IMG/VR virus record: IMGVR_UViG_3300021375_000197
Coordinates: 1 to 21,401 of that record
Reading direction: 5' to 3' (one strand)
DNA length: 21,401 nt
Source of the DNA: a virus
The notes below the pieces were generated by a model, which did no database searches, was not told the DNA's origin, and saw only the letters and a program-made list of their open reading frames with translations. The translations under genes and the position numbers were made by a program. Positions 2,102 through 7,659 of this stretch are shown here, in pieces. The number at the start of each line of letters is the position of its first letter. The first letter of the stretch is position 1.

Positions 2102-3402
2102 TCGACGACCTCGATGACTTCCTGGCGGCACCGGAGACCGTCTCACAGAACGAAGCGGAGAAGCGGCGGATGCTGGAGCGCAAGGCCCAGCTTGCCGCAG
2201 AGGACGCACGCGAGCGGGCCACCAAGTCTACGGAGGTGCCCACGCTTGAGATGCTCTGCGCCGATATGCTGCGGGTGGCGTGCGACGAGGAGACTAACCC
2301 GTTCTGGCAGGATCGGATCTTGTCCGCCAAGCGGTATCGCCGCTTCGGTCACTACCCCTTCGAGTACGTCGAGAAGGAGTTCGGCACATTCGCCCACGCC
2401 AAGGAGGTGGCGGGTCTCGCGGACAAGGTCGGCACTCGTCAACAGAAGACGGCGCGTGCAAACCAGTCGAGGGCCGAGCACTCGCAGAGGTATCAGGAGG
2501 AGAACTTCCTCCCCTACGTCTACGATCCCTCGCAGCGCGAGTCTCAAGGCACCGAGCTTGCCCTGATCATCTCCGACACTCACACCGGCTTCCTTGAGCC
2601 GTTCGCGTGGTGGAGCTTCCTCCGGGCCTGTAAGGAGATGGACCCGGACATCATCATCTGCAACGGGGACATGATCGAGGGCAGCGCCATCTCGCGCCAC
2701 CCGAAGGTGCCCGGCAAGGTGATGAAGCTCCAAGACGAGTTCAACTTCGCCCGCGAGATGTTCACGATGCTTCGGCGGATCTGCCCCGACGCCGAGATCA
2801 TCTGGACAGCGGGCAACCACGGCCTCGACCGCCTCGCTGCGTACCTCACGCAGGTGGCTCCGGGCCTCGCCGGGCTGGACTCCCTGCGCTTCGACAAGCT
2901 GGCCGGGCTCGACGAGCTTGGCATCAAGCTGGCCCAAGGGGGATCGTTTGTGTCCCCCAAGGGGCAGGAGAAGGAGCGTCCGGGTTGCCTCGTCAAGCCG
3001 TACTACATCGCCACCCACGGCACCGCCCTGGGGCAGACGCCCTTCATGACCGAGCTTCGTGCGACGGGCATCAGCGGCACCTCAGGTCACGTTCACAGAG
3101 CCGGGTTGGCTTACGGCACTACGGAGGCGATGGGGACCACCAGTTGGATGTCCACTCCCTCCGCCGTTGTGCAGGAGTGTGCGCGTGGTTACATCAAGTC
3201 TCGCAGCATCGCGTGGCAAGCTGGCTGGGGTGTCGCCTACTTGGACGACGAGGCCCAGAGGGTCCACCAATATCCTGTGGTCGTCAATGATGGCTTCGCG
3301 GCGTGCGAGGGCCTCGTCTTCAGGGACCCCGGTGTCGTGTACCCCAACGTCATGGACAACTGGATCACCGACTGGCACAAGCAGTATGTGGATTTCGCAT
3401 GA
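2098..3402 (+). CDS. Calcineurin-like metallophosphoesterase with N-terminal DNA-binding-like segment
   Basis: A 434-aa protein. The two-metal phosphoesterase signature is complete: D160-x-H162 (SDTHTG), G190-D191, G239-N240-H241, H307 and G330-H331-x-H333. Hydrolysis of a phosphoester, nucleic acid or nucleotide, is expected. Residues 1-45 are acidic and helical. Residues about 69-107 (FWQDRILSAKRYRRFGHYPF onward, ending FGTFAHAKEVAGL) resemble the small HNH-associated DNA-binding repeat with an FGSW-x-A-x-x-AGL-like end, which would direct the enzyme to DNA. Residues 108-150 form a linker. The start overlaps the upstream stop (ATGA) and has GAGGGGG 7 nt upstream; the stop overlaps the next ATG. 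A DNA processing or repair role is inferred. The substrate cannot be read from the sequence. Confidence 0.85.
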   Translation: MIDDLDDFLAAPETVSQNEAEKRRMLERKAQLAAEDARERATKSTEVPTLEMLCADMLRVACDEETNPFWQDRILSAKRYRRFGHYPFEYVEKEFGTFAHAKEVAGLADKVGTRQQKTARANQSRAEHSQRYQEENFLPYVYDPSQRESQGTELALIISDTHTGFLEPFAWWSFLRACKEMDPDIIICNGDMIEGSAISRHPKVPGKVMKLQDEFNFAREMFTMLRRICPDAEIIWTAGNHGLDRLAAYLTQVAPGLAGLDSLRFDKLAGLDELGIKLAQGGSFVSPKGQEKERPGCLVKPYYIATHGTALGQTPFMTELRATGISGTSGHVHRAGLAYGTTEAMGTTSWMSTPSAVVQECARGYIKSRSIAWQAGWGVAYLDDEAQRVHQYPVVVNDGFAACEGLVFRDPGVVYPNVMDNWITDWHKQYVDFA

Positions 3403-3881
3403 GCAATCCCATTCCGCAAGAGCTTCTCGACGCGGTGGTCTACGACCCGTCCTCGCCCACCGGCCTCTGGTGGCGCGAGGGCGGGCGTGGGCGACGTCCG
3501 GACCTCCAGTGTGGCTCGATTCAGCACCGGGCCGAGGGCCCGCGCTGCCAAGTCGGATTCAACAAGAGAATGTACTACAACTACCGCGTCATCTGGGCGC
3601 TACACCACGGCGACCCCGGCCCCCTGGTGGTGGACCATATCGACCGTGATCCCCTGAACAACCGCATCGAGAACCTACAGGCCATCACGCTGCACGAGAA
3701 CAACAAGCGCATCGTCGGCAAGGGCTACTACAAGTATAAGGGGCGGTGGCGCTCCTACATCCGCGTCGATGGCACGAGGCAGTACCTCGGCTTCTTCGAC
3801 ACCGAGGAGGAGGCGAGAGCCGCCTACGTTGCCGCGAAGGAGGAGACCGTCAAGGGTCTGGAGGTGAATCTTGAGGGCTGA
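3399..3881 (+). CDS. HNH homing-type endonuclease with C-terminal AP2 domain
   Basis: A 160-aa protein. An HNH_3-type core is visible at residues about 60-97: YRVIWALHHG, then VDHIDRDPLNNRIENLQAIT, with H80 and the NN/N residues (87, 88, 92) in the usual positions. Residues about 110-145 (YKGRWRSYIRVDGTRQYLGF, then FDTEEEARAAY) are an AP2/ERF-like DNA-binding domain. The combination is typical of free-standing phage homing endonucleases. It is inserted between the phosphoesterase (ATGA overlap) and the protease (11-nt overlap) without breaking either gene. A DNA nicking or cutting function is expected; the target is unknown. It may be a selfish insertion, or may have been recruited to packaging as some phage HNH proteins are. 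Confidence 0.88.
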   Translation: MSNPIPQELLDAVVYDPSSPTGLWWREGGRGRRPDLQCGSIQHRAEGPRCQVGFNKRMYYNYRVIWALHHGDPGPLVVDHIDRDPLNNRIENLQAITLHENNKRIVGKGYYKYKGRWRSYIRVDGTRQYLGFFDTEEEARAAYVAAKEETVKGLEVNLEG

Positions 3882-4437
3882 CCTAGCTTCACTACAGGGG
3901 CTCTGCGACGGCGTGGACCTCGTCCACCGGCAGGTGTGGCTCCACGGCCCCATCGACGCCGCCAGTATCGGCAACGTAATGAAGGCCGCGTTGGTAATGG
4001 CGCAGACCAGCTACGAGCCCATCGAGCTTCTGTTAGTGTCTGAGGGCGGGGATGTGGAGGAGGCGTTCGGCCTGTCCGACCTTCTCCGGTCCCTGCCCGT
4101 GCAGGTCCACGCCACCGCCTATGGGAAGTGCATGAGCGCGGCTCCCATGCTGCTCGTCTCCGCCGACCCCGGCTGCCGGGTTGCGGGGGAGAACACCCAG
4201 TTCATGATCCACGCAGTTGAGGTGGCCTCCCCTTACGCCACCCACCAAGACCTCTCCGGGCTTGCAGACTGCACCAAGAACCTCCAGAGCCGCTATTGTC
4301 AGTTCCTAGCGGACAGGACTTCGATGCCCAAAGCGCACTGGAGCAGGCTTATGCGGGCTGGGAAGGACGTCTTCTTCGACGCAGAGCAGGCGCTGGCTTG
4401 GGGAATGATCGACGAGATCGTACCGCAGAAAGCCTAG
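3871..4437 (+). CDS. ClpP-fold serine protease, probable head maturation protease
   Basis: A 188-aa protein. The order of ClpP/S14 motifs is clear: LLLVSEGGDVEEAFGLSDLL (the oxyanion-loop GG segment), AYGKCMSAAPMLL with nucleophile S89, QFMIHAVE with H114, and DVFFDAEQALAWGMIDEI at the end. The catalytic Asp of cellular ClpP falls at R162 in a simple alignment, so the third triad residue is uncertain. The start is TTG at 3871: it has a strong Shine-Dalgarno sequence (GGAGGT, 3860-3865) 5 nt upstream, and no ATG or GTG lies nearer the family N-terminus. In phages this fold processes scaffold and capsid before packaging. The capsid gene follows after the minus-strand insert. No scaffold domain is fused. 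Confidence 0.8.
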   Translation: MRADLASLQGLCDGVDLVHRQVWLHGPIDAASIGNVMKAALVMAQTSYEPIELLLVSEGGDVEEAFGLSDLLRSLPVQVHATAYGKCMSAAPMLLVSADPGCRVAGENTQFMIHAVEVASPYATHQDLSGLADCTKNLQSRYCQFLADRTSMPKAHWSRLMRAGKDVFFDAEQALAWGMIDEIVPQKA

Positions 4438-6092: not shown

Positions 6093-6109
6093 GGAATTAT
6101 CTAAATTCC
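6093..6109. promoter_or_regulatory. Operator-like inverted repeat in the divergent promoter region
   Basis: GGAATT and AATTCC form a 6-bp inverted repeat with a 5-nt spacer (ATCTA), midway between the minus-strand promoter at 6063 and the plus-strand promoter at 6140. A further GGAAT occurs at 6134-6138 just upstream of the -10. The stretch 6057-6150 is much more AT-rich than its surroundings. A regulator binding site is possible but unproven. Confidence 0.3.
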
Positions 6110-6139: not shown

Positions 6140-6150
6140 TGTGGTATACT
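6140..6150 (+). promoter_or_regulatory. Extended -10 promoter for the capsid transcript
   Basis: TGTGGTATACT is identical over 11 bases to the promoter at 588-598. Transcription should start near 6157, giving an untranslated leader of about 295 nt before the capsid ATG at 6451. No good -35 is seen; the TG extension of the -10 can compensate. Confidence 0.65.
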
Positions 6151-6156
6151 AATTGC

Positions 6157-6450
6157 ATAAGTCCGCCCGCGTCCCCGAGGGACAGCAGGTAGGCACCCCG
6201 CCGCGTAGGCGCTCCCGAGGAGCCCTAAGCCCGGCCCCGATGGGCCGGTACGATCTTTCCTTTAGCGGGGGGCAGGTGTGCGCTCGCTTTTCGCTGGAGC
6301 CAACCTCACAACTGCTGGGTGTGTTACCCGGTAGTACTCCTTTCGCCTGGAGTGCCCCGCAGTGGGGCTCGATGTCCGGGCACCCACTTTGTCTGCGCTT
6401 AGGCGCGAACCACTTCAGATGCCCCACCAGCGGCGACAAGCTGGATAGCT
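6157..6450 (+). ncRNA. Long structured leader RNA of the major capsid gene
   Basis: No convincing gene lies here, yet the stretch is rich in complementary segments. Stems read from the sequence: 6171-6183 (5 bp, CGA loop), 6211-6223 (5 bp, CGA loop), 6231-6248 (7 bp, CGAT loop), 6311-6335 (10 bp including two G-U pairs), 6336-6353 (5 bp), 6354-6368 (5 bp), 6395-6406 (4 bp) and 6427-6444 (5 bp). A long-range helix 6196-6201 with 6265-6270 would enclose the second and third hairpins. The last stem covers the only weak GGA ribosome-binding sequence. A second helix (6362-6368 with 6421-6427, 7 bp) is incompatible with both 6354-6368 and 6427-6444. It could be a cis-regulatory leader, a binding site for a coat or host protein, or a separate small RNA. 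No known RNA family was recognised. Confidence 0.55.
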
Positions 6451-7614
6451 ATGGCTAACGCACTCGATATTATTGTCCCCCAGATTCTCGCGCAGGGCCT
6501 CGCCGTCCTCCGCGAGAACATTGTCATGCCGTTCCTCGTGAACCGTGGCTACTCCTCCGAGGCCGCGCAGCGTGGCGACACCGTGACGATCCCGGTGCCC
6601 AGCGCGATGACGGCTGAGGACGTCACCACTGGAATGATCAAGGACATGGTCGCGCCGCAGGACGTCACGCCCTCCAGCGTGACGATCCCGATGGACCAGT
6701 GGAAGAAGGCCGACTTCGCGATGACCGACAAGGACCTTGTCGAGATCCAAGAGGGCTACCTTCCGCTCCAGGCCGAGTCCGCCGTCAAGGCCCTCGCCAA
6801 CAAGGTCGATCAGGACCTCCTTGGCATGATCACCGGCCTCTACGGCTTCTCCGGCACCCTTGGCGCGGACGAGGGTTTCAAAACCATCGCGGACGTCGTC
6901 AACGCCCGTAAGGTGCTCAACGAGCAGCTTGCTCCCATGGACCCGCGCTACCTCGTCGTCGGTCCCCAGGGCGAGGCCGAGATGCTCTCCATCCAGGCGT
7001 TCCACGACGCCAGCTTCGGCGTCGGCGGTGAGGCGATCCTTGAGGGTCGTCTGACCCGCCGCCTTGGCTTCGGCATCGCCATGGACCAGAACGTCGGCAC
7101 GATCACGCAGGCCGCCGGTCCCGTGGACGTCACTGTCAACTTCGACGAGTCTGCCTCCTCGAAGACCGTCAGCGCCGCTGCCGGTTCTTCCGATTTCGCG
7201 ATCGGTGCGCTGGTTGACATCGCCACGATCTCCGGCAACTTCGTTATCACCTCGGTGACCGGCACGGGGGCCAGCGCCGTTTACGGCATCGAGCCCGCGC
7301 TCCCGGCTGGCGCGGTCGGCGGCCCGGTTGCCATGACTGACGCCGCAGGCGTCGAGGCTGGCGAGGCTTACGAGGCCAACATGGCGTTCCACCGCGACTT
7401 CGCGGCGTTCGTGACCCGCCCCCTCGCCGCTGGCGCTGAGGGTCTTGGCACCGTCGTCCGGTCGATCAGCGACCCCGAGTCGCGCCTGACGCTCCGCCTG
7501 GAGATCAGCCGTGAGAACAAGCAGACCCGCTGGTGCTGGGACATCCTTTACGGATTCGCCCTCATCCGCCGCGAGCTTGGTTGCCGCGTCGGCGGCTCCG
7601 ACCTCACCGTCTGA
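6451..7614 (+). CDS. Major capsid protein, P22 coat-like HK97 fold
   Basis: A 387-aa protein of the type MANALDIIVPQILAQGLAVL, with RENIVMPFLVNRGYSSEAAQ, RGDTVTIPVPSAMTAEDV and TIPMDQWKKADFAMTDKDL. This N-terminal pattern is characteristic of P22-type coat proteins. A middle helix region follows (VNARKVLNEQLAPMDPRYLV, VGPQGEAEML). Residues about 220-300 are rich in beta strands and Ala/Gly/Val and look like an inserted or telokin-like domain. The C-terminus (SDPESRLTLRLEISRENKQT, then WDILYGFALIRRELGCRV) completes the fold. It forms the icosahedral shell and should be the most strongly expressed gene. The Shine-Dalgarno sequence is weak (GGA at 6443-6445) and lies in a hairpin of the long structured leader. 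Confidence 0.88.
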   Translation: MANALDIIVPQILAQGLAVLRENIVMPFLVNRGYSSEAAQRGDTVTIPVPSAMTAEDVTTGMIKDMVAPQDVTPSSVTIPMDQWKKADFAMTDKDLVEIQEGYLPLQAESAVKALANKVDQDLLGMITGLYGFSGTLGADEGFKTIADVVNARKVLNEQLAPMDPRYLVVGPQGEAEMLSIQAFHDASFGVGGEAILEGRLTRRLGFGIAMDQNVGTITQAAGPVDVTVNFDESASSKTVSAAAGSSDFAIGALVDIATISGNFVITSVTGTGASAVYGIEPALPAGAVGGPVAMTDAAGVEAGEAYEANMAFHRDFAAFVTRPLAAGAEGLGTVVRSISDPESRLTLRLEISRENKQTRWCWDILYGFALIRRELGCRVGGSDLTV

Positions 7615-7629
7615 TCTAGCCTGATCTGA

Positions 7630-7659
7630 AGCCCCGCCCGGCAGTAGCTGGGCGGGGCT
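7630..7659 (+). terminator. GC-rich hairpin after the capsid gene
   Basis: AGCCCCGCCC pairs with GGGCGGGGCT across a 10-nt loop region, 15 bp after the capsid stop. Only ATATCC follows, with no T-run, so termination may be partial. Such a hairpin would let capsid mRNA outnumber downstream messages or protect its 3' end. Confidence 0.6.

Follow-up and report, generated by a model that had tools for sequence, protein, structure and literature searches.

The capsid gene of this virus is preceded by a leader (6157–6415, + strand) that, by comparison with its nearest relative, is a conserved, structured, non-coding RNA. The core of the leader is a set of small hairpins in series that is shared with the leaders of many P22-type coat genes and probably serves as a docking site for a trans-acting factor. 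The window, which is the whole stretch of DNA analysed, is an IMG/VR virus record of 21.4 kb (21,401 nt). Its leader is a variant of the tandem-hairpin family and not a standard member.

The gene downstream of the leader (6451–7614, +) encodes a P22-type major capsid (coat) protein of 387 aa (PF11651, E 9e-25; phrog_283, E 2e-68). An extended -10 element (TGG-TATACT, 6142–6150, +) without a clear -35 lies in the AT-rich gap between a 519-aa gene and the leader, and from its position transcription is predicted to start at about 6157. The nearest relative, contig L001, has a capsid that is 71% identical, TGTG-TATAAT at the equivalent site, and behind it a homologous leader (L001:628–893). The earlier note, which placed a long structured leader between this promoter and the capsid ATG at 6451, was right about the anatomy. 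It carried the leader to 6450, and the conserved RNA ends near 6415. Within the remainder (6419–6448), a conserved TCAGATG starts the capsid gene in L001, whereas the window version starts a 9-codon frame (MPHQRRQAG). This frame stops 2 nt 5' of the capsid ATG and is possibly a leader peptide or a relic start.

The 519-aa gene (6056 to 4497, -) is inverted between the head protease and the capsid, and comparison with PHROG and Pfam gave no family match. The end of a similar reading frame occurs at the equivalent position in L001. At 3303–4437 an HNH endonuclease is found immediately 5' of the ClpP-type head protease, and no scaffold gene is recognised between the protease and the capsid. An inverted repeat (GGAATT-ATCTA-AATTCC, 6093–6109) lies ~40 nt 5' of the -10 box between the divergent genes. 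A counterpart in L001 (GGGAAT-ATCAGAG-ATTTCCC, about 563–582) shows that it is kept in both phages, and it may be an operator. A GC-rich hairpin (7630–7659, +) follows the capsid stop, with a similar hairpin behind the L001 capsid, and could mark the end of a single-gene transcript. It has no T run and was not called by a terminator scan.

The 5' portion of the leader consists of three hairpins, two of them enclosed by a longer-range helix. P1 (6161–6194, +) carries a CGA triloop (6176–6178) on the inner stem GTCCC/GGGAC, and two of its pairs show double compensatory changes relative to L001. P2 (6196–6270, +), in which CCCCGC (6196–6201) pairs with GCGGGG (6265–6270), is the enclosing helix of the earlier note. 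It appears in the MFE structures of the window segment and of L001, and being invariant between the two gives no covariation signal. Inside it are the two hairpins of the tandem module. The first, P3 (6203–6230, +), has the inner stem GCTCC/GGAGC and a CGA loop (6216–6218), with four double compensatory pairs in its outer stem. The second, P4 (6231–6248, +; CCGGCCC-CGAT-GGGCCGG, loop 6238–6241), has one. The distance from loop to loop is 22 nt in both the window (6216, 6238) and L001 (688, 710).

Approximately 145 nearly invariant nucleotides (6271–6415) follow the module in both phages. P5 (6274–6306, +; AGGT..GCTCGC / GC..GAGC..ACCT) is present in the folds of both leaders and, taken alone, is no better than shuffles (z -0.22). 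P6 (6311–6335, +; ACTGC-T-GGGTG / TACCC-G-GTAGT) shows two double compensatory pairs and a z of -3.76. P7 (6336–6353, +; ACTCC/GGAGT) belongs to the window MFE structure, and alternative pairings in the 3' domain compete with it within a few kcal/mol. P8* (6361–6388, +) pairs AGTGGGGCTCG with CGGGC-A-CCCACT (6361–6371 with 6377–6388) in the unconstrained folds of both leaders. Its tip loop differs in length (5 nt in the window, 9 nt in L001), as would be expected of a hairpin tip, and the sequence is otherwise invariant. An earlier P8 (GCCCC/GGGGC) was dropped in its favour, P8* being common to both unconstrained folds. P9 (6395–6406, +; GCGC-TTAG-GCGC) is weak, with an invariant stem and a z of -0.91. 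Competing, mutually exclusive pairings within a few kcal/mol are found in 6336–6415, and the predicted folds allow that this domain acts as a switch.

The leader as a whole folds better than dinucleotide shuffles in the window (z -2.36) and in L001 (z -3.64), and the 5' half of the window leader (6157–6270, 114 nt) reaches z -3.29, with none of 200 shuffles as good. A structure-guided alignment of the two leaders contains 66 pairs, of which 52 are unchanged, 9 are double compensatory, 4 differ by wobble changes and the last is disrupted in the window. The pair structure was drawn by hand with both sequences in view, and the 9:1 ratio is supportive evidence rather than a formal test. The double changes are confined to P1, P3, P4 and P6. 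Covariation is silent for P2 and the whole 3' domain because these are nearly identical in the window and L001.

No credible gene overlaps the leader, as the earlier note also held. A 101-aa TTG frame crosses it (6153–6458, +), but the mismatches with L001 are spread evenly over codon positions 1, 2 and 3 (25/24/25), compared with 9/7/26 in the first 61 codons of the capsid gene, and the indels between the two leaders (1, 2 and 4 nt) break the frame. The possibility that the leader is a gene, in this frame or in a 96-aa frame on the - strand, was rejected, as the + frame has no codon-position bias and is broken by the indels. Thus the conserved reading frame that the note gave as contrary evidence is not seen, and the covariation that it looked for among homologues is present, in these two sequences and in the family alignment described below.

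A capsid scan yielded 80 loci, of which 76 were usable and clustered to 52 at 80% nucleotide identity. The leaders of the 80 loci cannot be aligned as a whole to that of the window. Run over these loci, the covariance model R1 recovered the window, L001 and, weakly (E 0.76), the hairpin pair of L062. Three viral DNA patterns, together with the covariance model over the 80 loci, gave L001 as the only true relative of window type. Other contigs that matched a viral DNA pattern were rejected as chance matches, many of them belonging to one coding family, and a scan of genome contigs for the window-type RNA gave no matches. The window-type form, with the module inside P2 and ~145 extra nt, is represented by two sequences only in the collections scanned.

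The hairpins themselves are widespread. The motif counted was a triloop hairpin whose stem has at least five perfect pairs and whose loop, GGN or CGA, is closed by C-G. There are 57 such hairpins in the 200 nt before the capsids of the 52 clusters versus 46 in the other 480 kb, a 57-fold enrichment, whereas all other triloop hairpins at the same loci number 17 versus 749 (1.05-fold). Shuffled leaders contain 0.5 motif hairpins on average and 3 at most, and just 4 in the rest of the loci are intergenic. Although the leaders had been inspected before the loop class was defined, the effect size, the flat control class and a converse scan make a selection artefact unlikely. In the converse scan, GCCCCGGTGGGGC followed by AAGGAG was found on 16 contigs, 8 of which have a suitably placed frame of more than 60 aa. 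Five of these 8 genes are P22-type coats (3 on contigs already in the capsid scan). A P3-type hairpin is present in 43 of the 52 capsid leaders, and the other 9 clusters are without any such hairpin.

Tandem pairs were defined as two hairpins 17–27 nt apart, loop to loop, with C-G-closed GGN, CGA, GGAN or CGAN loops (also CGAY) and G-U pairs allowed. These occur in 33 of the 52 leaders, compared with 5 in 475 kb elsewhere on the + strand, 4 on the - strand, and 0.14 on average in shuffled leaders. The commonest spacing in the family is 22 nt. The window has such a pair (CGA at 6216, CGAT at 6238), to which P1 adds a third CGA loop (6176), and the module is located on the coding strand 5' of a P22-type coat gene (PF11651, 6451). 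Its distance from that gene is what sets it apart. The last loop is mostly 31–94 nt from the capsid start codon in the family, but the last triloop lies 235 nt from the ATG in the window (217 nt in L001), well outside the range of ~30–95 nt. By contrast with these leaders, none of 49 distinct HK97-type capsid leaders, which are close relatives of one another, contains the motif. The expectation in the earlier note that a long structured leader is unusual for a phage capsid gene is consistent with this comparison and does not hold within the P22-coat family, where such leaders are common.

Leaders of one sub-clade (L086–L104) also have three hairpins, which RNAalifold finds unaided in an alignment of 13 sequences. 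In this alignment 92.9% of cells are paired (77.2 ± 1.3 in shuffles), and the covariation score is 0.563 versus 0.255 ± 0.022 in shuffles and at most 0.19 in slid controls. The capsid tree places the window and L001 together with L026, L045 and L046 (99%). The leaders of these three carry additional structure of their own, which includes a repeated CACCTCGCGGAGAGG ... GGCGGGTGA motif. The three and L069, the nearest sister group by capsid, have a second conserved leader type, marked by the hairpin CCTC-GCGGA-GAGG and perhaps by a long-range helix (GGGYTCACC / GGTGAACCC). In L086, L096, L101, L062, L064 and L065 the 3' strand of a helix reaches the Shine-Dalgarno (SD) sequence, e.g. CTTGAAAAC / GTTTTCAAG-GAG. 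An SD-sequestering helix was rejected as a general feature of the family, with 8 of 48 leaders exceeding shuffles at p 0.05.

The module also occurs in cultured phages. In the Vibrio Mardecaviruses SSP002, MAR10, R01, S3, VP06 and RZ01 it precedes the capsid gene behind a TATAAT box and consists of AGCGGC(GGG)GTCGCT or TAACGGC(GGG)GTCGTTA, then GGTTTC(GGG)GAAACC, with a compensatory exchange of A-T for G-C. In coliphage HK639 a pair spaced by 22 nt, GGGTC(GGAT)GACCT and TGGCC(GGAA)GGCTG, lies before the scaffold gene, and the gap between scaffold and capsid is only 17 nt. Pairs with GGAT loops precede the capsid at a spacing of 23 nt in Synechococcus phage Yong-M4-211 and of 24 nt in Salicola phage CGphi29, and Caulobacter phage DMCA has a single GGAT hairpin. 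P22 cannot accommodate such a leader, as its scaffold gene is preceded by 13 nt and its coat gene by none.

Across the family the same loops sit on 27 different inner stems, GGU being the commonest loop. In 35 of the 38 clusters with two or more hairpins, all hairpins of a leader are of one loop class, either GG-type or CGA-type. The CGA label requires at least five changes on the capsid tree (a quick tree with some placements unsure), so the matching loops are not due to a single shared origin. Such joint switching of loops is what one binding partner reading all the hairpins of a leader would produce.

Based on these observations, we consider it somewhat better than an even chance that the leader acts in cis, as a structured untranslated region at the 5' end of the capsid mRNA whose tandem hairpins dock a trans-acting factor setting capsid expression. 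The core of the element would be P3 and P4, together with P1, and the C-G-closed loops would be the recognition sites. A factor that is perhaps dimeric or oligomeric would bind both hairpins together and, most likely at the level of translation, set the capsid output from the mRNA. The conservation of loops whose stems vary, the preferred spacing, the location on the transcript strand, the restriction to capsid and scaffold genes, and the joint switching of loops all point to an mRNA binding site for one partner. The restriction to one gene family in diverse hosts makes a head protein the likeliest partner, either coat or, where present, scaffold, in which case control would be autogenous. Of the functions offered in the earlier note, the binding site for a coat or host protein is the one that these features favour. 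In the window, however, more than 200 nt separate the module from the ATG, a long distance if ribosome binding is to be blocked directly, and another ~145 conserved nucleotides fall outside this account. In addition, the window has neither a recognised scaffold gene nor a clear SD sequence, and 9 of the 52 clusters are free of the hairpins. A broader form of this explanation is more tentative, and we regard it as possible but distinctly less probable. Here P22-type coat or scaffold proteins would bind tandem hairpins in their own leaders as a widespread autogenous operator, with a loop code co-switched several times and the window version elaborated and possibly bistable.

Translational control is our first choice, and the chief rival is an action of the hairpins on transcription, which we judge unlikely. 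Here the RNA would modify RNA polymerase, as put does, or recruit factors, as nut does, so that transcription reads past pause or terminator sites such as the GC-rich hairpin found 3' of the capsid in both phages. Consistent with this, the module is close to the promoter in some members. The P1 loop lies ~20 nt from the predicted start in the window, the Mardecavirus module is behind its TATAAT box, and the put elements of HK022-type phages are themselves paired hairpins near promoters. The hairpins of other family members, however, precede the capsid without an evident promoter, the prevailing distance of the last loop from the start codon suggests an association with that codon rather than with a promoter, and other transcription units on the same contigs have no hairpins.

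Slightly less probable is a passive role in which the leader, without any specific binder, shields an abundant mRNA from decay at its 5' end. The 5' hairpins of the ompA and T7 gene 10 mRNAs do so, and the capsid mRNA, presumably the most abundant of this phage, has many stable hairpins close to its start. Conserved loops, a preferred spacing and co-switching loop classes are not needed for such a role. It is mainly the agreement of loops within leaders that leads us to prefer a trans-acting binder over this passive role or one involving the ribosome alone. In the latter, to which we give a low probability, the SD-like loop and 3' strand (GGUG, GGAG, GAGG) would hold the 30S subunit near the start, and the window structure would replace a missing SD. 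GGAG and GGUG do match parts of the 16S 3' end, and a clear SD sequence is absent before the capsid in the window and L001, where the pairing is weak (-3.3 and +1.9 kcal/mol; mostly -6 to -11 in relatives). However, the commonest loop is GGU rather than GGA, the SD-like bases are largely within stems, and relatives with a strong SD carry the hairpins too. Many other genes of the window and L001, unlike the capsid relatives, are also weak in SD or have none, which suggests a host relying little on this sequence. A loss of SD peculiar to the capsid gene was rejected for the same reason.

Least probable is a separate non-coding RNA or riboswitch-like switch sitting in the capsid leader by chance. 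In its favour are its ~260 nt with their own promoter-like element, the mutually exclusive pairings of the nearly invariant 3' domain and the lack of an Rfam match. Against it, the form is found on two contigs only, nothing resembling a terminator separates the RNA from the capsid on the + strand, and the core hairpins belong to the capsid-leader family. The processing site and embedded RNA proposed in the earlier note are likewise unsupported, given the same lack of a terminator-like end and the occurrence of the same hairpins in leaders that are far shorter and are linked to capsid starts.

Rfam 15 (4227 families, gathering thresholds) gave no match in the window or in 16 relative loci, in agreement with the earlier note, which recognised no known RNA class. 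A scan of 7 isolate loci with E values up to 0.5 was likewise negative. Full-text searches, which covered open-access papers, turned up neither a description of the motif nor an RNA operator before a tailed-phage capsid gene. The tandem-hairpin leader appears to be a new form, of which the window version is an elaborated variant. How tailed phages proportion their most abundant virion protein is little understood. The occurrence of the module in metagenomic and cultured phages, including coliphage HK639 and RZ01, which grows on a laboratory Vibrio (V. natriegens Vmax), makes the question directly testable.

Structured leaders on phage head genes are already known as a kind. The candidate motifs Mu-gpT-DE and GP20 are structured RNAs associated with phage head genes, but no Rfam 15 family matched the window or its relatives at gathering thresholds. 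In HK022-type phages, the put antiterminator RNAs consist of paired hairpins a short distance downstream of a promoter. Compared by description only, put differs in serving early operons, whereas the module here precedes capsid or scaffold genes and is tied to the start codon. In the Guanidine-II (mini-ykkC) riboswitch, too, a leader carries two small hairpins in tandem whose loops are conserved. Membership in this class was rejected, since its loops are ACGR and those found here are CGA and CGAT (window) or GGN, CGA and GGAN (family), and Rfam gave no match. CsrA/RsmA sites are hairpin pairs with GGA in the loop that are bridged by a dimer, and the GGAN loops of HK639 and the Salicola and Synechococcus phages resemble them. 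These sites were also rejected as an identity, because the window loops are CGA without GGA and those of the family are mostly GGU. The scaffolding protein of P22 is autoregulated, with head-protein synthesis controlled after transcription, which provides a precedent in kind within the same type of head gene set. P22 itself lacks such a leader, however, and no scaffold gene is recognised in the window. The MS2 coat-protein operator is a short hairpin in phage mRNA with a conserved loop and a variable stem, and the hairpins described here resemble the operators of MS2 and PP7, both RNA phages, in placing conserved loops on short, variable stems. They differ in forming a tandem pair ~22 nt apart, in belonging to the 5' leader of a capsid gene from a tailed DNA phage, in having GGN, CGA or GGAN loops, and in having a binder that is putative. 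As such, the conserved tandem-hairpin leader offers a new candidate RNA-binding element.
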